Origin: Dromaius novaehollandiae
Lineage: Eukaryota; Chordata; Aves; Casuariiformes; Dromaiidae
Direction: 5' to 3'
Assembly: GCF_036370855.1 (NCBI RefSeq)
Contig: NC_088108.1
Span: 6,471,448-6,535,447, forward strand
Length of the DNA: 64,000 nucleotides
Within the stretch, counting starts at the first letter, position 1, and each line of letters starts with the position of its first letter. This document shows, piece by piece, positions 1,886 to 60,921 of this stretch. The position numbers and the translations under genes are program-made. The notes beneath the pieces are model-generated. The model saw only the letters and a program-made list of their open reading frames with translations. It was not told where the DNA came from and searched no databases.

Positions 1886-42139
<40,254 letters not shown>

Positions 42140-42353
42140 GGTGGGATAGTGCCTCTTCTCCTCCCCGTCACTGTCCGGGAACAGGTAGGAGCAAGATGGA
42201 ATCAAAGCCAAAATGCTGTCGGGCTGACGAAACATGAAATGCAAGGACGTCCCCTCTGTTCCCTCCCGAGCTTCAGGAGAAGCCAGCAGCCCACAACAAG
42301 GCTAGATTTGGGGTTTTCCTCTTGACGCCAGGACGGTAACTGCAAGCAACAGC
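42140..42353 (-). other. TMEM164 5'UTR, exon part adjoining the start codon
   Basis: Lies directly upstream of the start in transcript direction. A strong acceptor (pyrimidine-rich, ccccttgcag) ends at 42354, so this exon may begin at 42353; a second acceptor-like cttgcag ends at 42340. A possible donor (CCGG|gtaagg) at 42550/42549 would end a short non-coding first exon, leaving a mini-intron of about 196 nt. An in-frame upstream ATG lies at 42235-42233. The splice model is inferred from signals only. Confidence 0.45.
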
Positions 42354-42662
42354 CTGCAAGGGGAGAGGAGTTACAGATGAACGGGGTCACTGCACAGCGG
42401 TGCCAGCCGCTCGCCCCGAGACCCGCTACCCTCCCAGCCCCGTTAACACCCTTCGCTCTCCCCCGCCGGAGCGTTACCGGACTGCCCTTCTCCTCGGCCG
42501 GCACTACCACGCGCCCCGCCCCGCCCCGCGGCCGCCTCTCTCCCCTTACCCGGCCCCCACGCCGTCCTGCGCCGGGCTCCTCGGCTCGCTGCCCTCGGCC
42601 TCGGCCTCCCCCGCCTGCGCGCCCTGCTCCCCCTGCCCCGCGGGGCCGCGCGACAGCCTCCG

Positions 42663-42745
42663 GGCGCCGAACGGCCGCTGCCCGGGCACCCCACGGCCGC
42701 TGATTGGGCGCCGAACGGCCGCTGATTGGGCGCCGATTGGACGCC
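42663..42745 (-). repeat. 22-bp GC-rich tandem repeat carrying CCAAT boxes
   Basis: About four units of the form ggcgccgaacggccgctgat (then tg) are arranged head to tail, the first and last diverged. The TGATTGG parts give CCAAT boxes on the TMEM164 strand. The three CCAAT sites are spaced 22 and 11 bp, that is about two turns and one turn of the helix. NF-Y binding is the natural expectation for such sites in TATA-less promoters; that is an inference. Confidence 0.75.
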
Positions 42746-43019
42746 GAGCGGCCCCTCGCCCAGCGGTCCCCCTCGCCAGCGGCCCCTCGCCCGCGCGCCC
42801 AACGGCTCCTCGCCCGCGCGCCGCGATCGGCGCCCTCAGGGCAGCGGCCCGGTACCTCAGGCAGCGGGAGCGGATCTCGGCTCCGTGAGGGAGCGCGGCT
42901 CAGAGGCAGGCCCGGCGCCCCCAGCCATGGGGCTGGCCTTGGCGGGCGGGCCGGGGAAGGAGGAAGCAGCGCTCCCCTCAGCGGCGGCGCTTACAAGCCC
43001 GAGCGGGCGGGCTGTGCCC

Positions 43020-43037
43020 CACCACCACCACCACCAC
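43020..43037 (+). repeat. (CCA)n trinucleotide repeat
   Basis: About six CAC/CCA units inside the CpG island. Confidence 0.9.
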
Positions 43038-43648
43038 GTCCCGCGGCGCTCCCAGCCCCTTCCCAGGGCCGTAGCATCACCCCACTGACGTGCCTGACTC
43101 GCACCGAAAAATGGACGAGCCCCCCAGATTGGCTGCGCTCGCCCGTCCGCTCCTCCCTCCGCCTCGGCTGCTCCCGCCTCTCGCGGCTGCCTTATCTACC
43201 CGCCTCCTCCCATCTCCTTCGCTGCTACTTCTTCCTCTTCGTCCTCTGCTAGGTGTCTCTTGCTTTCCTTCCTCTCTTGCTTTCCCCTTCCTCTGCTTCC
43301 TCCTGCCTGTTGCTTCTGCTTTCTCTCAGCTGCCTCCCTTTCCTCCTCCCTCTCGAAACCAGCCTCCATGAGACACCCGAGGGTTGTTCTGGTGTCCTCA
43401 CTCGACCCAGCTCCCCTCTGTTCAGTCGGCAGAGAGGAAGTAAAAGAGCCAAAAATAGTTTTTTTCTGTGCTGCTAGGGCTCTGGCTCCTGCACTGCTGG
43501 CTTTTGTGGAGCCGGGTGCTCATAATCACAAGGCTGTTTGCTGAACTGATTCAACAAGCAGCGTTAACTTGATAAACTAGTTTTGCAAGTGCTGTTGCAG
43601 CAAGTATTAGTCAAGAAACTGCAGTGGCCTGCTTCCTTCTGGCACAAT

Positions 43649-43701
43649 ATGGAAGGCCAAACTTCAGAGGGGCCTCACCGTAGTCCCTGTCTGCATGCAT
43701 G
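43649..43701 (+). CDS. Candidate novel gene, coding exon 1 (start)
   Basis: An ATG in a strong Kozak context (A at -3, G at +4) begins MEGQTSEGPHRSPCLHA and leaves two bases (TG). It is closed by a very good donor (ATG|gtgagta). An in-frame TAA at 43565-43567 limits the frame upstream. The exon lies about 470 nt beyond the CpG island, on the strand opposite TMEM164, so its transcript could start in the island. I recognise no family, and the call rests on the fit with the four exons downstream. Confidence 0.35.
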
Positions 43702-45166
43702 GTGAGTACATGCAGTCAATTGTACGTGGAAATTGTGGTCACATGCAATGTGTACAGTAGAGATGCCACTGATATGTGTGCATAAATGATTTACATGCAT
43801 ACCTGCAGAACTGAGTCTTTGCAGACAGAGGCCAGGTTTGGTTCTTGGAGTTGACTGGTTTATGGTTTTGTGAAGTAAATGTACTGCAAATATGCAATTC
43901 TGTTTCTATCTGAAGGACAAAGGCAGATGAAGATCTAGGTAGAATAGTGGATTAAGGAGATATTGTCAAGGTAGTTAGAACTGTAAGTGGATACACCCTG
44001 ACAGCTGTCTCACTTTATAGGTTTCATTTCAGGGAGCCTGCCCATTGCCTGGGTGCAACTAGTCATTTCTTGTTCAGTAGGGCACTATATAATGCGTGTT
44101 GTACTGGGAACAGTTTGTATTACTGTTTCATTACTGTCTGTGTGTGACAATTATTATAGTGCAACAGTAAATCTAGAGTGCTCAGTTTATCAGAAATGCA
44201 TGCATTTTATTTTGGGAGCGTGCATTATTACAAGTGGGGGAAACAGACAGACTTCTTCACATATATTTAATGAAAAAAATAGCCCACGTTTCAAAGACTA
44301 TAGTTATTGCATGTTTCTGGTTATTGTTAAACTATCAGTCCTCAAGGATATTCTGAGGACTGTCTACACTAACTACACTGATATATCTTCTGGAACAGTT
44401 TCTATTCCAGAGACATTTATACTATATGGACTCTTGAATTTCAGCACTCACTATGACTTTTAATGCATGTAGGCAAGTAATCCAATTTCTTGTCAAAATT
44501 TCACAATTGTCAAATGGCAATAATAATGCCTACATTGCAAGGATATGAGAAGTGAAAATCGCATCTGAAGGAAAAAAACATTTATGAGTAGAAAAACTCA
44601 TTTTTTCCTATAGATATATATTCTACATTCTCTTACCTCAATATTCGCAGTTCCCCGCTTCTCCCCACACAACCCCAACTCCCACCTGATTCCTTTTTGT
44701 ACCTCTAAGTGTTATCAGCCTCAGAGGCCTGAAATCCTAAAGGAAAGTCCCAACAATCTCCTGCCTCCACAGACTTTCTACATTTTCAGTTTTCTTACTA
44801 GACGCCCCTCAAAAGTGAAGAGGTCTAGTAGCTCAGCAGTGTAGTGGATAACAATACTTCATGCCTCTGTGTGTTTTGAGAAACTACTGGCTACTCCAAA
44901 CCGGCATTCCAGCTCGGGCTAGTTCAACAATATAAATGCATCCATGGGCTTGTCACCAGCCCATCAAAACAGATCATTGCTATACTCATGTTCTGGTCTT
45001 TTCCTCATTTGCTCACACATTTAGATCTCTTGCATGTACCCAGTTATCAGGAAAAGGGTTCAGAGATCACAAGTGCATAAGATGCATTTCTTTGTGAAAG
45101 CAATCTAAAGAAATTGCTGTATCTGAGGTAAGAATGCCTGACAATATATTGCTCTTCTGATCATAG
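43702..45166 (+). other. Candidate intron or upstream intergenic DNA
   Basis: AT-rich. It contains a plus-strand open frame of 136 codons beginning at a GTG (44053-44463) that looks like chance, and a MIR-like tail (44505-44580). Nothing else is supported. Confidence 0.5.
44505..44580 (+). repeat. MIR-like tail relic
   Basis: The sequence tgtcaaatggcaataataat, then gcctacattgcaaggatatg, parallels the 3' part of MIR (ctgtaaaatggg aataataatacctacc). Strongly diverged. Confidence 0.4.
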
Positions 45167-45236
45167 GTCACTGTCACCTCACAGAAGAGTTCGGGAAATG
45201 CGAATTCCCAGAAGCAGACCACAGACGCTGCAAAAG
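45167..45236 (+). CDS. Candidate novel gene, coding exon 2
   Basis: A 70-nt segment between acceptor gctcttctgatcatag and donor AAAAG|gtgaga. Its first base completes Trp with the previous exon, and 23 codons follow (opening SLSPHRRVREMRIPRSRPQT), ending in phase 0. The peptide is rich in Arg and Ser. A second acceptor (cactgtcacctcacag) ends at 45184 and would change the phase. Evidence is splice signals and phase only. Confidence 0.35.
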
Positions 45237-47799
45237 GTGAGAGACAAGAGGAAACACAGATGCAAGATACAAGGCTGTCTGCCATTGCTTCTAGCAGTAG
45301 TAGCTGTTCTACTGTATGTGGTTAAGGGAGTGGAAAGAGATGGGTCTGTTCCAGGTTGTTCAGAGCAGCAGATGATCCAATTGGTGGACCCCATGAGAGA
45401 AAATAATCTGTGCTTGTGTTTATAAACAGTATTCTTATGTTTTAGAAATAGGGAAAGAAAAGAACTACCAAACTATTGGCATTAGTGCTAGTTCTTGTTG
45501 GGGGGATCTTGTTAGGATTGTTAAATATAGAAACCTTGCAATAAAGGTTGCAATAAATCTTTGGAGAAAGAATATATATATTTAATATATAAAAGTAATA
45601 TGTTATTTATATAACATTCAGAATCATAAAGTAAAGAAAGGAAATAAATCATACAGTCACAGTGCATAAGAACCAGGTGAAACACGTTCAAATGTTCAAG
45701 ACTGATCCACTTAATTATTGATTACTCAATTTGTTTATTATTGTCATTTAGATCAGAATAGCTTAGATCTTAATCTTAGCAGTGGATTAATGAGAAATCC
45801 ATTAGAACAGGAAAGTGGAGCTACAAGAGACTGCTATAGTCTCTTTCAAGATTTAATAAGTGAAAATTTAACAGCGGTGGCAAAATAGTTTGTTTCTTAA
45901 CATGTATAAAGAGGATTTTTTTAATAATAAATTTAATTCTATCAGCAAAACTTCGAGTTTACTAAGGGCTTGTCTTACGTAATATCGATATGAATACATA
46001 AGAGGCTTCCTAAAACCAAGAGTCTTTTTTAAACAGATGATTTCAGCAAGTGTGTTGCAAGAAGGATTTATCACTGTATGGATTATTTCTACGTGAATAC
46101 ACAGAAACACCTGTTGGGTTTCAGTTAAAGTGTGTAGTCAGCAAGTTGATGCTCTCCCAAAATTTAAATAGTAACATTTAAAAATATAATGTAGTAAGTT
46201 CACTATTTAATTGAACATGGCCTCCTTTGAAAGCACACAAACATTGCCAAGTTTTAGAATCTTAGAGTTTGATAGCTCTATTCTGCTTCCTCAACTTCAA
46301 AAGAGCTTTGCATCTCTCTACCGTTGATATGCATGATGCTTTGTTAACAAATCAGAGGATATTGTTCTATGGATGAATGCACATTCTTACGTAATAAGGC
46401 ATAAAAACTAAAAAAAATAGCTATTAATAATAGAGTAATAGGCCAGACAAGAAAGTAATTCTTTTTAGATACTGACATACTAATTCAGGGGGAATAAGAG
46501 ACATTGGAACTCTTAAAATAAGATCAAAATGATGACTTAACTAGCATGAATAGTTCCATATAATTAATGGATATTTTAACAGAAAACCAGAATATTAATA
46601 TAAGAGGATATTAATATATCCTTATTCAAATAAGGATAGGAAAAGGGAGGATGTTTTGCTTTGCTTTGTTATAGCAAAAAAACATACATTGTTCTGGGGT
46701 GCAGAATGTGTCATAAATTAGACTTGTGACAATATACATGATAATAAAAGGAGAGAAGCACATGACAGCAAGGTGAGCTTACCTAAGATAACAAGGTGGA
46801 TGGTTATTTTAAGATCAACTAGCTGAAGTGAAAAACTTAGTAGTAATAAGGCATTTTAACTACTTGGATATCTATTTGGAAAAGAACATGAACAAGCCAC
46901 AAGAATACGAGGAATTGGTCAATTTGCTTGGTTTTGTTACAGGGAATGCAGAAAACAACTAGAAATAAGGCTCTTAGCTCAGTTCTAACCAGTGAGGAAG
47001 ACCTGGCTGAGAATGTGAAAGTAGGCAGTGTTTTGTGTGAGAGCATTTACAAAATGAGAGTTTGTTGTCTGTAGAAAAGGAAGGAAAGATAACAGCTAAA
47101 AGAGACTTCAGGAAAGCTTTGAAACTTAGGGAATTAATAGCTAAGATCTCATAGGAAGGAAGTGTAAGGAAATAAGGAGCTAAGAAGAGGGACAGTTCTT
47201 CAGAAAAATAATTCTAAGGGCACGTTTATCCCAATTTTGAGTAGAATAGGGATAATAGTAAGGTTAGCTTGACTACAACATGAGCTCACTATTTACCTTA
47301 AGCATGAAAAGAAAATATAAATTAAGACAGGTCAGACTACTAAGTATAAAGACCAAAAGACTAAAAAGAGGTCATGAGAGGATTGAACTATCAGGAGACA
47401 TCAAAGATAACACAAATTATTCTGTATTAGTAATAAGAAGAAGACAGAGAAGAGGATTAATACCCTACTCAATAGAGAAGAAAATCTGTCAACAAATGAT
47501 AAAGGCAACAATTACTTTAGCTTTCTTTATCAGACTTCATAAAAAGATCACCTGCAAGCAGATAGTTAGGACAGGTGATGCCAAGATCTTAGCCCAGAAT
47601 GGGAAAAGAACAGATTAGGAGCACTCATACAGTTTGAAAACATCTGACTTATCTGCGTCTGATCAATATCATGCAAGGACAATTAAAGAATTGACTGATT
47701 TAATATCAGAACCATAAACAATTATATCTAATAGCTCTAGGAAGATGAATGAGATGCTGAAAAACAGAAGCAGCAACTGTAAACTGCTCTTATTAAAGA

Positions 47800-48330
47800 G
47801 GGAGGCAAGAGCCGAGAAATACAGATTGGTCAATTAAATTAATTTCAATCCCCAGAAAAATTCTGGAACAATTAATCACACAAACTATTATTAGCACCTA
47901 GATGATAACCAGGGAACAAGAGCAATCACCATGGACGTGTCATAAATCATGCCAGAAAACTTGATTTTTTTTCTTCCAGTACAGAACAGGTTTTCGAGAA
48001 AGGATAGAAGCAGATGACCTGTTATCACATGAGTGTCAAAAACTTAATTAAAACTGACGTTTTCATTGAAAAGTTAAAGAAATATGGTCAAGATAAATCT
48101 GTTATAAGGGCTATACAGATCTGGTTGGATAGTCAGCAATAGTTCACACTCAAACAGTAAGAATATATTGCTGAATTCCTAGAGTTTGTATTTAGTCTGG
48201 TTCTGGTTGGTATTTTTATTAACAATGTAGATGGTGGAATCGAGAATATGGTTATTAATCTTGTAGGTGACACGAAGCTGGCAGAATTAAATTTTAAAAT
48301 AGTCTCTACAATTGTGAAAAATGCTGTTTA
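47800..48330 (+). repeat. CR1-type LINE, degraded reverse-transcriptase region
   Basis: Ordered landmarks of a CR1-like ORF2 reverse transcriptase are visible: a ttctggaacaattaatcac block, a catgccagaaaacttgattt block, a gacctgttatcacatgag block, an agaaatatggtcaagataaa block, ctggttggtatttttattaa (from LFNIFIND), and gtaggtgacacgaagctggc. The last corresponds to the FADDTKL motif but now reads LVGDTKL, so one catalytic Asp is lost. There are many stops and frameshifts. It is a dead ancient copy; the open frame upstream (47280-47618) may belong to it but is unrecognisable. Confidence 0.7.
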
Positions 48331-48439
48331 AGAAAATAACAAGGAACATATTCAATAAGAACAAGTTGCATCATAGCTCAGCACTTCGTAGTAGTATAAG
48401 CCAGCTGGTATAAACCATGACTGCCTTTCCTCTTCCCCT

Positions 48440-48660
48440 TGCTACTCATTTTCTCTCACACTGCCTCATGCTAGCGTAAGTTTTTCTGGAGCTATGTGGT
48501 TGTCTATATAAGGAAACTGATTCACATTACCATTATCATCTCAGAGAGTTAACTGTAATCTGGAGCACTTCCCTGATCTATTTGATCCTATGTTGGGTTA
48601 TGGTGATGGATGAGATGACCTCTCTAGATGTCTTAACAGCTCTGTTTTTCTGCGATTATC
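48440..48660 (+). repeat. CR1-like 3' tail relic
   Basis: The sequence ggatgagatgacctctctag, then atgtcttaacagctctgttt, resembles the CR1 3' end (an actagatgacctctagaggtcccttccagc type). It lies just beyond the reverse-transcriptase piece on the same strand and could be the end of the same insertion. Confidence 0.4.
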
Positions 48661-48789
48661 CCCTCATTAAAAAGAAGGAGTATATTTGATATAAAATTGA
48701 CATACTAGAATGATTTTTTCTTTTTGGAACAGCACAATATTGTTGATTCTTGTACAGATATTGATCCATTGTAAATTCAAGAGATCTGT

Positions 48790-48892
48790 GTTCTCTGATC
48801 TTGATCTACTGGGTGGCTTAGGCATAGTTCCTTGATTTGCTCTGTTTCAGTTTCTTCAGCTTCTTTGAAAAGCACTTTGAAATCTGTGAAAA
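48790..48892 (+). repeat. MIR-like SINE relic
   Basis: Shows a diverged gtgacc..caagtca block, then ctctgtttcagtttcttcag and aaaagcactttgaaatctgt. The order suits a MIR core and tail. Confidence 0.45.
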
Positions 48893-49186
48893 AGAACAGA
48901 GTATTATTGAGAGACTGCTAAGCCATTGCTCTTTCCTGCTGTTTATTACCCATTTCTTCTCTTCCCTTCACTAAGTAATTTATGTTCTTTCTAAGATCCT
49001 TTGTAAACATATATATCGCATATGTCAATAGAAATGGTTCTCTAAAAGCGATAAATTCCTGTGACTAGGATGTTTGCACAAGAGCCTGAGGGTTGTTCTT
49101 GTATCTAACATGAGATTTTTTTTTTCTTTCTGTGATTTCTTAAAATATCAAAGTAGTGAAATCTAACGTTAATCCATCAAGAAATG

Positions 49187-49550
49187 CCAGGGCCCTGTGT
49201 GCACCAGTAGGCCCTAACTACCGTGAGCAGCTTTGTCTGGGACCTCTACCTCTACATGTTGTGGTTAGCCCTGAACCTGTGCTCAGCCCAGTCCCCCAGT
49301 TGTTGGCTGGACTTCCCTGACTGATCACGGAGCTGACTTGTCACCTCTCATTTCTCTGGTGATCACTGGACTGTCAACAGAACCTGTCACTGTCACCAAC
49401 CCTGTTCTACTTGCCTGACTTGGTGCTGTGGGATTGCACCCCTCTTGGCAAGGTCACTGCCTCTGTCTGTGCATGGTCACCCTTGGCTCCTGTGTTGCCT
49501 CCCTTCATAGAGCAGCCCCATTCTTGCTGACATAAACTGACTTCTAATTT
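49187..49550 (+). repeat. LTR-like CT-rich dispersed repeat, copy A
   Basis: A GC-richer island in AT-rich DNA, built of ctgac, ctgatcac and ctggactg motifs (for example ggtgatcactggactgtcaa). It shares these with copy B 1.2 kb downstream. The style resembles LTRs of old endogenous retroviruses of reptiles; no retroviral gene is seen nearby. The family is not identified. Confidence 0.4.
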
Positions 49551-50370
49551 TTTTTTTATTGTGAAATTGCTCCCACTCCAAAATAAAGCTCTATGGTTCT
49601 TTTCTAATTATTGCACTAATATATTGCTTGCAAATTCCCATTAAATTTTGTAAGTACAGAAGTAAAGGCAAAGCCTGAAGTCTGGCACATGGTAAATAAC
49701 AATCAATAACCATCAAAAGTTGAACTTCAAAGCAGAAGAACTAGAAGAATGAAGGATATTTTCCTTAATTTTTATTCAGTAGAGCATTTAAGTACAGGCT
49801 TATTTTCAGTCTGTCCTTAAATCTTCTGAATTTAAGTACATAAATTAAGAGCTTTCCTCTGTCAACATCTAGCTATATTTCTATACTTCGGAAATATGAT
49901 TCTAGACATCAGTATGTAGTTACACCTACAGGTTTACTAGAAACTGTGCATCCTTCTTGTCATGTAAAAATTATTATTTTTTTTAATAACAAAATAATAT
50001 TTTAAGCCTTGAAATAATGAGGAGTAATATTCCTGGGGAATAATTATACTTACAGTTATTGCTGAAGACATCAGCAAAGTTACATTAACAGTGAATCTAT
50101 AATTTATCATGCAAGATTATGCACAATGTAATAAAATTCTGATGATCAGTAGTTTATTAGATTCTTTGAGCTGATGGAAAAATCGATTATTTGGAGTGTC
50201 AGGATGAATGTTTAGTCCTTTGTGTATAATCCATGATATCTTATACAAAATGCAAAAACAGATGACCACATCTTTAGGAAAAAATCCATTAAATTGTGAG
50301 TACTAATGCTAAGACTTTTAAAAACAATGATCTGAGAGGGTCTGCCATTTTAGTAATGGTTGGAGCTGGC

Positions 50371-50870
50371 CCCAATTCTCAGGGCTCTGAGCACATTCCT
50401 CCCTTCCAGTTTTGTTGGCCAAGGAGTTTAGCTAGCTGTTCCCTCACTGATAAGAGCTGTTGTGAAGAAAGTTAGATGCAAGGGCCTGCACCTTCTTTCT
50501 TTTGTGAGCTGCTGTTTAAGCTGAAGCTTTATCACTGGCCCTCAGCTGTGCTACATCCTAGCTGTTCAGCAGCTGTGTTTGTGCCCAGTCTCTTACCTCC
50601 TTGATTCTGGCCCTGATGGGAATTCACTGGCTTGGTTTCCAGGCTTGATCTCAGATCTGCCTTGTCCGTGACTTGCTGGGTGATCACTGGGCTACACTTG
50701 ACCCTGATCACTGTCTCCAGAGCTGATCCTGACCCTGACTTGCTGGCTCATCCCTGAGCTCCTTATAGGTGAGGTCACTGCTGCCTACCTTGTTAGCACG
50801 CTCAGATCTTGGCTCACCATCCCTTGCAGAGCATCCAGGCCTTGCTGCCCACTGATACCAATCCATTATT
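50371..50870 (+). repeat. LTR-like CT-rich dispersed repeat, copy B
   Basis: Contains ttgattctggccctgatggg, gggtgatcactgggctacac and gctgatcctgaccctgactt, a motif style I associate with solo LTRs in turtle and crocodilian genomes. It is in the same orientation as copy A. Both are diverged, with no open coding content and no clear TG..CA ends or target duplications. Confidence 0.45.
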
Positions 50871-50907
50871 TTGGAGCTGATGCATCTCTTCAAAGCCCAG
50901 TAAGAAA

Positions 50908-51015
50908 GGTGGTATTTATTCCTATTTCACAAAAGAAACATGAAGCGCAATGTGATTGTGTCTTGTCTAAGTTCATATAAGAAGCCTGTGGCAATCAGGA
51001 GTTTAACTGAACCAA
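50908..51015 (-). repeat. MIR SINE relic (reverse)
   Basis: Reads ttcctatttcacaaaagaaa, catgaagcgcaatgtgattg, tcttgtctaagttcatataa, which is the reverse-complement MIR order (cccattttacagatgaggaaactgaggc, then cttgcccaaggtcacac). Confidence 0.65.
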
Positions 51016-51943
51016 AAAACCTTCCCACTTCATTATATCAGTAACTTTTTCATTCTCTCCTCTCTTCTCCCTTTTTCTGTTCTCCTCCCACCTTTATTAA
51101 GCATTTCTTGGTCAGCCGTGAGTGTTAAGTCTTGCAACGTTGACCATGCACTGGAGACAAAGGTTTGTTTTGTTCCCTCCGCTTGCAACCTAGCATTTTC
51201 GTAGTTTCATGTGCTTGATCTGAGTAGTGAGGAGTTTTGAATTCCTGCTGGTATAAACACAGATACTCAGAAAGAAAGGGGAATTGCTTAACTGACATAG
51301 GAAGGAAAGAGTGCAGCTGGACTGAAGGAAAAAGCAGTAATGGGGACAAGTTTTGCAAAAAGTTATGATCAGATGCCTGTTAAAGTATTGCTGTTTATTT
51401 ACAAGGATTTTTATTAAAAGAACATAAACATTATGTGCAGGATCTTTGATCTGATGATCTTTGGAGGTGCATATGGAGTCAGCGTTGGACTCAGCAGCAA
51501 ATTTATCATTCATATATGCTTATAATGGAAGCTGGCTTGAGACACCCCTTCCGCTTGTCATTTCTTGTCTGAAGGATGGTACTTGGCACAGTATTGCAGT
51601 CTGGATTATGCTTTGAGCAGTCAGAATGAGACTTGGATTAGCCACAGTGCCAGTAGTTAACCGACTTGGGGCATAAATATATTCAAGTCATGTCCACAGA
51701 AAGCAACAACTTTTCTACTGCTTAGGCTTGTAAGCCAGAAGGCTTGTTTCTCTAAAAAATATAGAAACTGAAGTCTCTTTGGCTTTCTAGTGACACCCTA
51801 ATTCTTTCCACTTTGCAACTGGCCTTCCTTCTGTGCTCCTTGGAACCCAGGAGTTAAATCAAACATACTTTCCTTTCAAAAATTAAGAAAATTGTTTCCG
51901 TAACTGAAATAATTCTGCAGAAATGTACCTACATACATTCATT

Positions 51944-51968
51944 TTCTCTCTCTCTCTCTCTCTCTCTC
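51944..51968 (+). repeat. CT microsatellite
   Basis: (TC)n of about 12 units. Confidence 0.95.
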
Positions 51969-52502
51969 ATTTTACATTTTTTTTTTCATTGTTAGGATGG
52001 CTTTGGTACCCCAAGCTGAGTTCTACTAAGTGCTGAAACTTGTGTCTAGTCTTAAGAAAATTCTTCCCTTATTTTCCATCTCAAAAAAAGTAACCAAAAC
52101 CTTGATTGCTGGCAAAAGCAGTGAGGCTACAATGCTACGCTGACTATGGTAAATGCCGTTTGTTTACTCGTTTTATTTTATTCAGTGTGAAGAAGGGAAA
52201 TAGACTGATCAGTTATGATTTCCATTTTTAAACACTTCTATTGTACTTCAGTGCAAGATACGTGGGCAGGGGACTATTGAATCTAGTCTTCAAAACTGTT
52301 TAATTTGGGGAAAAAAAATATCTAACCAAGAATATTTCCTTCAGTGCTAGTTTTGATAAATGTATTTCTCCTCACCAGACAGCTTGAGCATAAGATACTG
52401 ATTCAGAAATAGGTTTCTTTTCTCTTCCAGTTCTTTTGTATATAACTGTTATAAATGGTCATATACCAAGTAACTGTTGATGGTTCTCTCTCAAGTTTTG
52501 GC

Positions 52503-52534
52503 AAAAAAAAAAAAAGGGGGGGGGGAGAGGGGGG
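52503..52534 (+). repeat. A13-G10 tract with GAGA and G6
   Basis: An A homopolymer passes directly into G10 and then AGAGGGGGG on the plus strand. Confidence 0.95.
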
Positions 52535-55500
52535 CACTTACCCTCCTGGGCCACCAGAACAAGATGCATCTGAGCAAATCAGTAGGATCATAGTATCTTT
52601 CCTCTTGCATACTGGTATCAGCAAGTGAAATAATGAAGAGCTAGTAGTTATATTATCTTTAGTCCCCTGGCTTAATATTTAACCCCCTCAAAAATGGACA
52701 TGCTTATAGATATTAGGATTTTTCCTGTTGAATTATCTACAGTATCTGATATTACTGCATTGCTGAACATTTAGTTCACATTTTGAAAATTACCTTTGCA
52801 ATCAGAAGTGCCTACAGGGCAGTCATATGGAAAAATTCAATCTGGTAAGCCATACTTAGTACAGCTTTGTTTCTGGTTGCTACAAAGCTAGTTTCGTAGA
52901 AATTCTGCCATTAGTTATTCTGACTTTCTTCCATTTGCTCACATATATTTTTTATGAATTTGAAGAAAGGCTTGTTGTAATGTAATTGCTGATTTCCTCT
53001 CAAGGGTTTTTCTTCAGAGGAAGATGAAAGGCTGTTGTTTGTCATATCTCTCTCCCTGTCAGCTAATTTAGCTAGAACATACACTAGACAATACCAAAGG
53101 AAAAAAAAAATGTCAACTTGAAACATTCAAAATAGAAGCTTAAAAAGCATATCATATTTTCATGTTCTTCAGTCTGAAGGACTGAAAATAATTATAAGGT
53201 ACCGACAAACTTGTTAGATGACAACCATGTGAACCAGCTTTTTGTTGAATCACATTTCTGTCATTTGTTTGCAGTATCTGACTTATTTTTTCCACTTACA
53301 TAAAAAGCTGCAATATTAATAGGTACATAAACAGTTGGATGTAAAAGCAGGAGAATTGCTTTGAGATACAGACGATCATCGCTAACAGTTCTGCATCTGG
53401 AGACTGAGTATGTGAGAAACGGTGATGCATTTCACTTTAGGCTCATATCTTAAATGAGTAAAAGAATACTCTGAAAATATTTGGAGCTTGGGAAAAATAT
53501 TTTTTTTAAGATGAGTGTGGAAAAAACAGTCTGATATAAAATAAATAAAATGTTTTCTTAAGAAAATTAAAGTGTCCATCCAGATGTTTTTATGTATTCT
53601 TCCTAAGCTTGAAGTATCTTGAGAACTCAGAGAAAGAGGAACAAAACTGCTCTTTTCACACACCAGTAACTAAACATCTTATGCCTTGAAGTGCTCTATG
53701 ACATTCATCCCTTTCTGTGGCTGTGGCCTGTCCTGTTTAGCTATTTTTCAGTTTTCATTGTATTTTCAAGACACTTGCTTTATTTCATGTCCAGTGCCAG
53801 CACCGTATTATTGGAAATATAATAAAAGGAATTTCAGAAAGAACCACCCAAACTCTTTTTCTGGAAGCTCAGTCCTAAGAGCACTTTTTTCACTCTATCC
53901 TTCCAAGTCAAAATATTATAATATTAATATAATGCACACTTATAGATGTTTACAACCACAATAATTAAATAAACTTGTTAACAATATTTAGCTAGTCTTT
54001 CAACTGACCACAGGTGATCTCTGACTTATCTATAGGTAGACTACAAGATACTTCTCATACTAGTATCTCAGGACAAGAAGAACCAAATCAGTGATGAATT
54101 TGATTGTCAAATTGAATTTACAAGAATTGCTGGTTAGTTCATGTTTGGCAGAGTTTAACTTTACCCATTGCTGGTTTACACAGGAGTTATTTGATTCTGT
54201 AAGTCTACACAGAAATGCAATGAGAAGAAGTTGTGCTTTTCAGTTCTGTTCTATCAAGCCTTATTAGAAATCCTTTTAGTTTATGCCTATGAAATCTGTC
54301 ATCACCTGTCAATCAGAGATGGAGGAGAATAATCAGTGTAACAAATTAGTGGAAGGGATGTGTATTCTTTCTTTTGCTTTAGTGTGTTTTGTGTTGTGAA
54401 ATTTTTCTGACACTTCAGGTTTTAAATGCTAAAGCAGGAGACTAAGTGTTCATGAAAAATTTGTATATTAATCTTAGGAGTTTAAAAATGTTACAAATTT
54501 TACAATTTTAAAGTTTGCTGTTTAAGATTATTACCTGGTAATTGTGTGCAAATAGCCTTATTGTTCTTCAGCTTAGATCAAAAGCAGCACATAACATTAT
54601 TAACAAGCAAAAGATTAAAAAAAATCCAAAGATACAGATGTAGATTCATTCTGAATGAAGATCAGTTTTTTAAAAATGAATTATTTCCCTGAATTTCATT
54701 CCAGATTTAAAAATCACCCGTGAAGAGTCTGAGTAGCGCAGGTACAGTAGCAAGCACTGACATAGCAGCTTATGCAACAACAGTTTAAAAAAAACCTTCT
54801 TGCCTGCAACAGAGGCTTTCCAGGCCACCAGACTCAAGAGGATAACTTCAGTAACCAGAGCAAGCTGAAATCAGTAAAAAGAATATCAGTCTAAAATACA
54901 AACCATTACTTTTGTGCAGTGGTACCAGCGCTAGTTATTAATACAGGAAACAAACCAACCATCAACTATTGTAGTAATACACAGGGGGAACGTTGATTTG
55001 TAAGCAAATCGGCGTTCAAATTTTCCACATCTTTAAAGGTGGAAATCAACACCTTGAATGGGTCTATGGAGATCAGGTAATACGTACTCCAAAAAGTTAA
55101 ATGAAGTATAATCAAAGTACTAGGTTAAAATTTGTTTGTTTTTCCCCGCATGAAAAGGATATATTTCCAAAATTGTAAGGTCAAGTAACTGAAGTTTTTC
55201 TAGTATGACTGGGAAAGAGATGATGGTTTTTAGATGAGCACATCATTAAATGAAAGCAAAGTGTTTGTGTTAGTTTTGTCGTTTCAGTAGTAATTCAAAT
55301 TGCCAAGCATGGGAAGTGGTGGGTGGTAAGTGCTTGAGTAATAAATCCATGATGAAAATGAAACATAGTGTTTGCATATGGGGATGACAGTGAATGTCTC
55401 TTGGCCGATCAGAGACCGGTAAAAAATAATAATTTTGTAGAATTTGAAAGCATTGTGAGAGAGTGGTGACTATAATGCCACAATCCATGTGTGTTTAAAG

Positions 55501-55868
55501 GTGACTGTGATGCAAAAGAAGAGAACTTTAGATAGTACCTGTGAAACCAAGTTGCAAGTTAAATCTGTTACGACCTCTGACTTTCATCTGCAGATAAAAG
55601 AATATGACGCTTCTTTTATCAGCAACTCAAGACTGAGTTCACTCTTAAAATCTGAAATCTAATAGCACTTATAAATCTCAGCCTGAGAGATTCTGAACAC
55701 TTGCATCTTCCCTAAATTCCTGTGTGTAATTTGCCTTTATCATGAATACTGCAGTGAAATGTTGTAATATATAACAAAAGGTAATTCCAGTCTCAGAAAC
55801 AAGAAAAAAGGTAGGAAGAAGATCTATTAGATTATCTGATCTCTGGTTAAATAAGTTTTATAAAATTT

Positions 55869-55898
55869 GTACTATTCCATTCTATTGTGGAATAGTAC
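55869..55898. repeat. Perfect 11-bp inverted repeat with 8-nt loop
   Basis: The arms gtactattcca and tggaatagtac are exact reverse complements separated by eight bases. The hairpin does not extend beyond the arms, so it is short for a microRNA precursor. Confidence 0.85.
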
Positions 55899-56265
55899 GT
55901 GATGAGACCAATCATGTCATGCTATAGTATTATCACTATGTATTTTCATGTCTTGTGATATTTAGGAAAGGAGGTGTTTAGTGTCTCAGCTTTTACAGTG
56001 ATATAAAAGGAACTCAGCATATGTTTTACTTAAAGGTTTCTAATTCAAACATGCTTGCAGCAACTGTCTTGAAAATGTGAAGTTTAATCATTCAAGAATT
56101 AGACTGCAAAAAAAGATACCTGAATTTATTATTTAGAATGTTTTGATGTGAGGGAAAGTCAATTATTAGTTTTTAATCACTGGACTACTGGTGTTATAAT
56201 ATGTGTGTGTGCAAAGAGACACAGCTGGGTTTTTTTGTTTTTGTTTTTTTTTCTTACATCATTAG

Positions 56266-56418
56266 ATCAGAGAGGAAGAAAAGTATACATCAATACCATT
56301 AAGAAAATATGCTAGCCTTGGGACCAGACCAACCAGAGTATTTAGTTCTTTCAATTCTTTTACAGCTGATGGACAGAGCAGACAACAGGATGAGGCCACG
56401 TCACAAGGCTTTGCTCAG
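56266..56418 (+). CDS. Candidate novel gene, coding exon 3
   Basis: The strongest exon of the candidate. A long T-rich tract and cttacatcattag form the acceptor, CAG|gtgagt the donor, and the 153 nt between them are exactly 51 codons with no stop (phase 0-0). The other two plus-strand frames contain stops. The peptide begins IREEEKYTSIPLRKYASLGT and continues RPTRVFSSFNSFTADGQ, then a Gln/Asp/Ser-rich end. It is hydrophilic, with no signal peptide or membrane segment. I do not recognise it. It could be a small cytosolic, possibly cilium- or testis-type, protein, but that is a guess from its style only. Confidence 0.45.
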
Positions 56419-57610
56419 GTGAGTAATAACTCTTACCTTTTATTGTCTCAGGTTTGAATCAGGGTTTCTCTGAAAAGGTGAAATATTTCAAGTTCTGTTA
56501 GATACATGTATCTTTTATTAACATAAAGAGAGATTGGAGTTGCACTTTTAACATTTCTGTTGAATATAAGTAATATTATGCATTATTTTAATATCTTCAG
56601 TTTTTAGTAATCCATGAAAGTAGATTCTGTAAAATACCAAATGGCTCATCTTCTAGCGTAAACCATGTTGAAAACAACAGCCTTCAGACATCACACAATG
56701 AATCCTGACTTTTATGCCTAATATGCTATTGTTCTTATTTGTGCCCTAGAACCGCTTTCAGCTTTGCCAATATTTTCTAGCATTGATTCACTGAAGATAT
56801 GCATTTATAAATATATATTTATTACTTTGTAGAATTTCATCTCTTTAGAGTTTGTTTTAGTAAGTTATGGAGAAAGATGGGTATGCTCAGTTTTACCATG
56901 CAAGTTTGTGTTTCATAAAGTCATAGAAACACCACACAAGACAGAGGTCATGTTTAAGTTCTTTACTAATTGCTCTTGATGGTTTTATTTAACCATTTTG
57001 TTAAAAAGACTAGATGGAATAATGAGCCCTCTAGTGGCTGTTCACCCTCTTAAATACTGATTGTAATGCTCTTAATTAAGTAACACAAAAAAAGAAAACT
57101 CTTTTTCAGTAGCAGCAAGATTTTTGTTGCTTTAACTCCTGGGGATGGTGTTACCACTACTCTTATACACATAGGAAATGGAATAGTAAGAGCTGGGCTG
57201 CTTCTTTTTAAGGCATGAAAGGAGTACCAGCAGAAAGGAGATTCAGAATTATACCTGCATGATACACAATACTCTTGTATAAGAGAGTTTTGCTTTAAAA
57301 GCAAGAATAGATACCTGATTCTGCAGAGTTTTTATTATAGAAAATGCTCATATCCTTGCTTTCATAGTAATTAGTTAAAATACAGGGAGCTTCTGGTGGG
57401 GCAGCCTGGTGATAGTTTAATAGGTTTAGTCAGTGGTCTTTGCGCTTTCAGATCATGCTTTGGCTGGCAGACATAGCCAAAGAGGCAGCAATCAAAAAAA
57501 AAAGGTTTTTTTGGTTCCGCTAATGGCAGTGGCATTTGGTCGCTAGGAGCTTGGCAGGGGCCTAGATTCATGGAAGTCATCAATGTTTGTTCTCACTTCC
57601 TGCCTTATAG
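56419..57610 (+). other. Candidate intron 3 of the novel gene
   Basis: AT-rich, starting at gtgagt and ending in a strong acceptor. It includes a CTCF-like motif on the minus strand (57023-57037). Nothing else is supported. Confidence 0.4.
57023..57037 (-). promoter_or_regulatory. Candidate CTCF site
   Basis: On the minus strand it reads CCACTAGAGGGCTCA, matching the CTCF core CCASYAGRKGGC at all twelve positions and then diverging. Chance matches of this length occur, so this is a weak call. Confidence 0.35.
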
Positions 57611-57643
57611 GGTGGATTTGAGCTGACACTGCCACAGTTCAGG
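57611..57643 (+). CDS. Candidate novel gene, micro-exon 4
   Basis: A 33-nt segment bounded by an excellent acceptor (ttctcacttcctgccttatag) and donor (AGG|gtaagc). It encodes GGFELTLPQFR in phase 0-0, following on from exon 3. Being a multiple of three, it could be skipped without shifting the frame. Confidence 0.35.
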
Positions 57644-58033
57644 GTAAGCAACTGCTTGAGAAAGGTCAGGCAGACAGCAGTTTGCAGGATAATTCTGAAC
57701 AGGTCACTTTCCAAAGAATTCTGTCATGAGAGACATGGATAAAGCCTTGATTTACATCTGAGTGCTCTAGCTATCCAGCTTTAGAGGGTCCTGCAGGGAA
57801 GGAATAGGAACTAAACTCAATTTCCTAACCTCACACCCCTAGATGAAGAAGAAATAGGGGATGGCAGGAGGGAAGGGCAAGATTCTTATGCAGATTTAGT
57901 ATCTCTGCCTATATTCCCTGTCTCAGGATTCAGACGAATCCTGTAGTCAATGGTTCCTGTATTCATACTACAGCAGTGGAGGTTTCCTAACAGTTTTCAT
58001 TAACAGAACAGGAGACAAGAAAGGATATTTTTC

Positions 58034-58068
<35 letters not shown>

Positions 58069-58430
58069 CAGTACTACTGTGATGTGATTCCTACATAGCT
58101 CAGTCACTTGTATTTTCATTTAGTCTATTTCATGAGTCCGGGAAATATTTACCACAGAGCTCTCTAAGTTTATCAGGGTTCAGGTACATGTGAGCATCTG
58201 AACAGTTTGATGGTATGTATCATGCTTTAGAGCGAATTCATTTTTGTTTTCTCCCCAGTTAATTGCTGGGAAGGCTTTTTCCACATTCTCAACCTTGACT
58301 TTTCCTTTCTCTGTAGCACAGTCTTATCTTCCTGCCAGGATATGGGCCCAAGGTTATAGTACTCAGGACAGGCATTTTATCCAGTGGATCATGCTGGACT
58401 CAGTAACTGATTTTTTTTTTTCCCCTTTAG
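57644..58430 (+). other. Candidate intron 4 of the novel gene
   Basis: Starts at gtaagc and ends at a long T/C tract with cccctttag. It includes a (TTTTC)n microsatellite and a T18-like run (58029-58069) whose end (ttttcag) also looks like an acceptor. Confidence 0.4.
58029..58069 (+). repeat. (TTTTC)n microsatellite and T run
   Basis: About five TTTTC units pass into a long T run. Confidence 0.9.
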
Positions 58431-58625
58431 AAACTGTGACTAAGGGTGAAAAGAGGAACCCAATTTATTTTCTTAAAGCAAGACATTACTTAATAGCTGA
58501 AACAGGGGAAAAGGGATTAGCAGAAACTGTTAGTACTGTGGGTGCATAACTCAAAGGAGTGGTGAGATCTCCAGAAGAATGTAATTGAAAACTTTGCCCA
58601 ATAAAGGGGTGAAGGAGTAACAAAA
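58431..58625 (+). CDS. Candidate novel gene, terminal exon with stop and poly(A) signal
   Basis: A T- and C-rich acceptor (tttttcccctttag) opens this exon, and AATAAA lies at 58600-58605 with a G/T-rich stretch after it, so it looks like a last exon. In the phase set by exon 4 it adds only Lys-Leu before TGA at 58437-58439, giving 105 residues in all. Another frame (entered with one carried base) stays open for 38 codons to a TAA at 58546-58548, so the true C-terminus is uncertain. Confidence 0.3.
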
Positions 58626-60921
58626 ATATTTATATCCCAGCTTGCAAACATTCCAAGTTATTCATGTTTTCAAACAAGCATTTGCTGCTGTTTATAAAGT
58701 CCAAACAGCACAAATGTCAGCAAGATAATCAAAGAAAACTCTAGATGTTCAGTCACATGAACAGAATAAGTTACAGCTTTCTCACTAAAAAATTTTTCAG
58801 AGAACTTTCATCACAATACTCGTACATGCTCCCTCCTATTTGTTTAACACCACTCTGAAGCACTTGAAAGTTAAGAAGTAAATGAAACAAGATATATTTG
58901 AATTACACCTGGGATCTGTATCACTGGTATCTTCACCTGTGAAGGTACCTTCAGTGGGATCTTGCGAATAGACAATCTGCAAAAACTTTAACATCTGCTA
59001 CTATTTGGCAGTATTAATGGTGATATTAATGCAAAAGAAAGTGTGGTATTATAAGCAATGCCTGTTTAATTGATATTATAAAAATGATTCTCTGTATTCT
59101 GATAACCATTTTGTAATACATCAGAAATCTGACTTTGTTTCCAAAACACTTGATGGAGGCTAACAGTTAATTTGAATGGTGCAAAATCAAGTTCAAAGCA
59201 TTCTACTGATAGAGACTAAATTCCAATTACAATGTCACATCCCACCAGAGCACTGACTTCTATGCCGAGATCTTCATGTCTTCCCAGAATTCTGTAATTT
59301 CTTTTGGTTGTTTGAAGCAGGTCTGCTTGTGCTCACATTAAAATATGCAAATTAATTAAAAATTGCACTGTGACTTAAACCAGTCACAGTGATAAGGGAT
59401 AAAGATCAGTACGTTCCAGTCTGAAAATTGCTAGATAATATCTGACATTTTATGTGGGTTTTTAAAGGATTCATTATTTTAATCTATTCAAGTCATGCAT
59501 CAGAAACCAATAGCAAGCATTTGAAATTTTTCTCACATCCTTATTTTTATTTATTTTAGCAAAAGAGCAAGAAAATAAAATTCCCATCATTTTCATGAGT
59601 TTGTGTGAAATCAGAGCACTTTAATAGCAGGTGTATAGCAGAGTGTATAGGAGCTTCATTTCACATTATGAAGTAGAACAGGATGTATGCGTTAGTCTAT
59701 CCTCATGAAGCTTTTTACTGTACCCAAGAAGTTGGACTACTTTTCATTCAAGGAAAAAATGATCATGACAGCACAGGACACTACTGATATTCAGATGGAT
59801 TAAAATGTCGGTCCTCATTTATTTAACTGCTATCATCGGATCATTTTCCGGCTTGACTTTTTTCCTAATAGCTCCTTTTTTTCTTTCAAATGAAGGACCC
59901 ATAATATGTTGTAAGAACTATAATTCTTAAACATAACATTTTAAAAAAACTTATGTTGCAGATCTTACCTTCTTGGTCATAGGACATAAGCAGTAAGTTT
60001 CTTCCTGCATTTCTGAAATATTTAAAGTTCTTGTTTACCTCCAAGGGAAATTGTATCATGTGCTAGCTGTTGAAAGTGAGTGTATGTTTTATTGTAGTTT
60101 AAAATACATGAATATCATTTCATGAATTACATAATTTATATAGTTTATTATTATGTATAATTTATATTGCTAGGACTTTTTGAGTAAACTCCCAAACACA
60201 AGCAAAAGTGCTGATTAACCTTCAAACCTTGTAGAGCAAAACATGTTGGTAAGAGGACATTGTTTATTATGCACAAGTAGGCACACAGGAGCTACCTGAG
60301 TGAGGCAGGGTCTCTTGCCCTTTTGTAAGCTGAATTCCTCAGTGTTAAATCTTACTTACCTGTCTATCAAAACCTGGCTTAAGTTAGTGTAAGGAGATTC
60401 TAGAATTAAAAAAAACAAAAACAGAAAACAAAAAACCAACCTGAAATGTGTAGCCCTATTCAACCTTCTGAAACCTTAAGTGGAAGCAGACTCTTGAAAC
60501 AGAGTCCGGATCAGTGCTATATATATATATTACTTGAAAAGGTAAGTGAGCAAAAGGTTTGAGAAGGGAGTATATGCCCTGTACTTCATGGTTATGCTTT
60601 TCTTCTGTAAATGCAATGTGTACATTTAGTATAGAGCTTATTAAGAAAGGTGCTTGATACTAGTTTTCGAAACAATCTCATGATGTGCACATTTGCAGAA
60701 ATGTTTGTTTTTCTTCCAAAAGGGTCTAGAGAAGAAGAAGCCTTGAACTAGGAATCTCCCTTTGTGAGAAGATCTGGCTTCTAGTATTTGCCCTGTGAAG
60801 AACAGGACAAGAGCTATCATTCTGCAAGACAGGGTACTAGCATCTAGGTAGAGCTATAATTCTGGCCCTGAGGTGGAAAAAAAATATATCAAAGTTGGGA
60901 CTGACTAGTTTGTTTAGGGCT

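Follow-up and report, generated by a model that had tools for sequence, protein, structure and literature searches.

The 64-kb stretch of the Dromaius novaehollandiae (emu) genome analyzed here and termed the window (contig NC_088108.1, positions 6,471,448 to 6,535,447) includes: (i) TMEM164, which is transcribed leftward on the - strand, (ii) a CpG island at 42.0-43.5 kb, which surrounds the TMEM164 start, and (iii) to the right of this island, a chain of five candidate + strand exons, which is tentatively read from the sequence as a non-coding RNA that would start at the TMEM164 CpG-island promoter, run away from that gene and be spliced, at nearly equal odds with a chance run of splice signals. 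All positions are on the window scale, such that sites beyond 64 kb, on the ACSL4 side, are outside the window. ACSL4 is located there on the + strand, with a CpG island at 76.5-78.0 kb and a first coding exon at 102539-102892. The candidate chain is situated in the 33-kb gap between the TMEM164 and ACSL4 CpG islands, with its strand heading toward ACSL4. Counted from its own ATG, candidate exon 1 starts at a distance of 1.4 kb from the outer ATG of TMEM164; the promoter island may be bidirectional. The features are as follows, with splice sites scored by generic vertebrate matrices:

43649..43701, + strand: candidate exon 1; ATG at 43649, donor score 6.3; a second ATG (43699-43701) closes the exon exactly
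45167..45236, + strand: candidate exon 2; acceptor score 4.2, donor score 6.7; all three frames open; G+C 0.51; 3 CpG
56266..56418, + strand: exon 3 as first proposed; weak acceptor (1.4); donor score 9.3, the top-scoring donor of 43.5-76 kb
56366..56418, + strand: alternative exon 3, better bounded; acceptor score 5.3; G+C 0.55
57611..57643, + strand: candidate exon 4, 33 bases; acceptor score 7.3, donor score 5.7
58431..58625, + strand: candidate last exon; acceptor score 7.0; AATAAA at 58600-58605; 3' end as first proposed
42001..43500, no strand assigned: TMEM164 promoter CpG island, a candidate bidirectional promoter; CpG observed/expected 0.59-0.95 and G+C 0.61-0.80 in 500-base windows
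41771..42235, - strand: TMEM164 first coding exon; start at ATG 42235, matching two bird models of 322 residues, with a further, inner ATG at 42139; GTAAGG follows

In the original prediction, the five segments (with exon 3 at its full length) were joined through GT...AG introns in one shared frame. The borders and phases of this chain are exact, and its translation is 105 residues, ending in Lys-Leu-stop. The context of ATG 43649 (A at -3, G at +4), the AATAAA of the last segment and the position of the chain start next to the TMEM164 CpG island are likewise as described; these sites, their order and the island can be read directly from the DNA. The splice signals, said to be good throughout, are strong for all four donors and for acceptors 57611 and 58431, but weak for acceptor 56266. 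Among the 1832 GT sites scored in 43.5-76 kb, the donors of exons 1 to 4 rank 10, 8, 1 and 15, while the acceptors of the chain rank 55, 254 (56266), 3 and 7 among the 2431 scored in the same region. For 11 of the 13 ACSL4 exon stretches, whose ends are approximate, no donor near the ends scores as high as the candidate donors (5.7-9.3).

The middle of the chain is open to a second construction. Acceptor 56366, located 100 bases past 56266, ranks 29 of 2431. The 100 bases between the two acceptors have an intron-like G+C of 0.35, compared to 0.55 for the 53 bases that follow. Use of acceptor 56366 shortens the proposed 105-codon frame to 63 residues; with the same acceptor, ATG 43699, which has T at -3, opens a different frame through exon 2 that yields 55 residues. 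The last acceptor is uncertain as well, with the rival sites 58317 and 58339 scoring 6.3 and 7.7, respectively, vs 7.0 for 58431.

Of the two options offered in the original prediction, the spliced divergent non-coding RNA has become the leading reading, whereas the small protein finds no support. Divergent transcription is favored because of the position of the island, the strong early donors and the lack of an early AATAAA/ATTAAA, and further because the framed chain is rare in shuffled sequence, the donors are strong throughout and the DNA is single copy at the sensitivity of the search. The candidate transcript is regarded as non-coding because no protein relative and, in the 105-codon frame, no codon signal were found. 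On the + strand, the interval 43.0-45.54 kb has no AATAAA/ATTAAA, whereas 44-76 kb averages 1.84 per kb, and holds three donors that score at least 6.0, with splice sites preceding the first polyadenylation signal. The G+C-rich first part of this interval explains some of the scarcity of AATAAA/ATTAAA.

When 43401-46000 and 55801-59400 were searched as DNA against their own genome (very common words skipped), each matched its own place alone. The exon-bearing stretches are therefore single copy at the sensitivity of the search, with no dispersed repeat found to explain the sites, and a repeat origin was rejected on finding no second copy of either stretch. Internal repeats in 43401-59400 are limited to one weak direct pair and one weak inverted pair, and no Rfam family matches at gathering scores across the window. 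The long candidate intron includes an A-rich stretch (~46600-48400, with an AT skew of 0.25 at 47-48 kb) that looks like an old decayed insertion.

A serious competing explanation is that nothing real is encoded, i.e., that the best-looking sites of 64 kb were joined by eye and that the shared frame is luck. This explanation, which ranks close beside the leading reading, was weighed using a chain score (the sum of the splice-site scores) and a null of local dinucleotide shuffles of the 15.1-kb region. The 105-codon chain, which totals 47.9, is equalled in 4 of 1000 shuffles when the chain must open at a Kozak start, span 105 codons or more and include three internal exons. At weak site thresholds, by contrast, 307 of 1000 shuffles hold some chain of this kind, as luck would predict. 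The best framed chain (ATG 43699, acceptor 56366 and last acceptor 58339) scores 52.5 and is matched by 1 of 300 shuffles and, in a larger run, by 3 of 1000. Of 16 real segments with G+C of at most 0.38, none reaches 52.5 (three of these are without any chain of three internal exons), whereas 7 of 12 segments with G+C of at least 0.42 do, and the opposite strand of the same region scores 35.2. At strict thresholds, set to the minima of the chain itself, only the candidate region, of 28 segments that include it and its opposite strand, has three internal exons in frame; the thresholds of the 105-codon chain add one other segment. Also counting against luck are the start of the chain directly beside a CpG island and the lack of a polyadenylation signal ahead of its first donors. 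Luck sits well with the failure of the 105-codon frame to show protein relatives or a codon signal, and with the ACSL4 5' part read antisense (78-102 kb, - strand), in which a chain of at least 105 codons reaches 51.0, above the 47.9 of the candidate, although the best with Kozak context is 45.1. Strong acceptor-donor pairs occur at 3.2 per 10 kb in the candidate region, compared to 0-2.4 in other low-G+C segments, but are equally dense (3.2 per 10 kb) on the opposite strand. The shuffle fractions are not corrected probabilities, because the region was chosen by eye among about eight 15-kb strand-regions, and for the same reason the evidence for a non-chance origin is only suggestive. The chain exceeds chance mildly, which is suggestive at best.

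Several measurements weigh against a divergent transcript. Once the frame is disregarded, splice strength is not exceptional: the frame-free score of 55.9 is reached by 7 of 300 and 8 of 300 shuffles, real segments match it in 2 of 16 cases at low G+C and in 9 of 12 at higher G+C (one tie counted), and the opposite strand comes near it at 52.6. The strand bias expected of transcribed DNA is, moreover, only half present. On the sense strand of both TMEM164 and the 78-102 kb part of ACSL4, G exceeds C and T exceeds A jointly. In 44-76 kb, the excess of G over C is 0.052 (standard error 0.013) and that of T over A is 0.009 (standard error 0.014), and in 44-59 kb alone the values are 0.045 (standard error 0.024) and 0.005 (standard error 0.025), respectively. 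As proof of transcription, strand bias is ambiguous. The test is weak in both directions, because the last part of ACSL4 (102-114 kb) is also without either bias in clear form. The GC skew changes sign at ~44000, from negative values across TMEM164 to a positive average up to 76 kb, and is not followed rightward by the TA skew; this switch could mark divergent germline transcription or a replication start.

The G over C bias that runs on through 44-76 kb would also fit an upstream alternative leader of ACSL4, in which transcription starts at the TMEM164 island and the exons are spliced onto the same-strand ACSL4 about 45 kb rightward. ACSL4 is suited to such an arrangement in being a + strand gene with strong acceptors at 102346 (7.1) and 102477 (7.4) near its first coding exon. 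This leader is nevertheless improbable, as ACSL4 owns a CpG island with a strong donor at 77141 (8.3), and the AATAAA at 58600 would need to be passed.

A palaeognath or sauropsid gene for a small protein, of 105 residues or of 55 residues (ATG 43699 with acceptor 56366), is a similarly improbable reading. The frames are open across all junctions, and G+C is 0.51-0.57 in exons 1, 2 and 4 and in the 3' part of exon 3, above the 0.35-0.40 of the introns. Neither peptide, however, has a relative at E 1 or better among 5.8 billion proteins. In this search, which needs shared 5-residue words and candidate lengths of 0.55-1.75 of the query, one of the two runs found no candidate sharing three words and the other found two candidates, neither at E 1 or better. 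TMEM164, used as the control, found 615 proteins at E 1e-5 or better; all of the 120 matches listed carry PF14808, and these include many birds, tuatara, turtles, crocodilians and squamates. Sauropsid proteins are therefore well represented in the collection.

Codon use of the 105-codon frame resembles that of non-coding DNA (p 0.42). For the 55-residue frame, a lean toward coding-like codons is seen that does not decide the matter (all-codon p 0.13, synonymous p 0.08). Five of the 13 ACSL4 stretches served as controls, all belonging to the training set, and gave an all-codon p below 0.01 in four cases and of 0.16 in one. In the same controls, the synonymous test fell below 0.01 in just one of five and is, thus, of little power. 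The 55-residue chain is also outscored by its own reverse complement (8.1 vs 10.8, in a run that had one of its 18 training pieces, a TMEM164 fragment, out of frame), and its ATG has T at -3. No Pfam domain is detected in either peptide. In the PDB, the 105-residue peptide matches two distinct sequences (E 0.52 and 1.1) and the 55-residue peptide matches three, the best of which is dTor_9x57R, presumably a designed repeat protein, with a whole-chain E of 3.2e-5 and no single matched stretch passing; this match is taken as an effect of composition. The undescribed small protein of the original prediction, with its weak mid-chain acceptor, is unsupported on these grounds, and both frames were dropped as the best explanation. 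A more specific form of this reading, likewise improbable, is a palaeognath-specific (or fast-evolving sauropsid) gene that would have been born from divergent transcription at the TMEM164 promoter; its exons 45167-45236, 56366-56418 and 57611-57643 would encode a disordered, Ser/Gln/Thr/Ala-rich peptide some 55 residues long.

In the favored model of a divergent non-coding RNA, the polymerase at the TMEM164 CpG-island promoter would also travel rightward, on the + strand and away from TMEM164. U1 would be drawn to the strong 5' splice sites at 43702 and 45237, ahead of any AATAAA/ATTAAA (none lies before 45540), and would shield the RNA from early cleavage, in line with the suppression of polyadenylation signals by U1 sites in the productive direction outlined in PMC5881035. 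Splicing would then include 45167-45236, exon 3 as either 56366-56418 or 56266-56418, and 57611-57643, with the 3' end of the RNA near 58600. Such an RNA is predicted to be non-coding, with its short frames arising by chance. Any action would probably be local, through transcription or through promoter opening at TMEM164, as proposed for divergent long non-coding RNAs (lncRNAs).

The TMEM164 side of the locus has features of its own. A TMEM164 query joined from the exons in the window matches a tinamou protein best (91%), followed by shearwater, kiwi and gull models (89% each). The upstream ATG at 42235 would add 32 residues to the TMEM164 frame, and a similar N-terminal extension opens the Calonectris and Apteryx models (322 residues each); the tinamou record, which is partial, starts two residues ahead of the inner methionine. 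Short G+C-rich tandem arrays, with periods of 22, 11, 14-15 and 23, are found at 42660-42822 within the TMEM164 CpG island. Elsewhere, contigs C33 and C35 carry two AMP-binding matches (L002/L004 and L003/L005) that score identically and are spaced almost alike (36.9 kb), a pair that may represent a shared Z/W part of a ratite or a duplicated haplotype.

In the papers surveyed by title and abstract opening, no transcript between TMEM164 and ACSL4 is described. On the statement of the original prediction that mammals have an empty space here, the two genes are named in succession in a list of eight genes of human Xq23 (PMC8042019), an order that is no proof of an empty interval, and both are named in the ferroptosis literature, to judge by the same kind of source. 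If real, the candidate would add to the unannotated divergent lncRNAs, with TMEM164 behind it and ACSL4 ahead, and would be of value to annotation rather than a new kind of element. The locus also illustrates that a hand-picked five-exon chain can look good while its coding tests fail.

The candidate resembles de novo or lineage-specific small proteins in its short frame and in having no relatives found, and differs in that its 105-codon frame is without a coding signature. Compared to the upstream antisense RNAs, or promoter upstream transcripts (PROMPTs), of CpG-island promoters, the candidate is alike in position and direction; PROMPTs, as summarized in PMC5881035, end early at polyadenylation signals and decay, whereas the 43.0-45.54 kb interval of the candidate combines strong donors with freedom from AATAAA/ATTAAA. 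Divergent lncRNAs of chicken are on record (PMC5225574, PMC10951430), among them one that diverges from DHCR24. The candidate differs from the DHCR24-divergent lncRNA, as described in PMC5225574, in being known from sequence alone and in the 1.4-kb distance between its exon 1 ATG and the outer TMEM164 ATG. The two are alike in having no frame with known relatives, a head-to-head arrangement with a coding gene, a shared promoter region and a spliced model.

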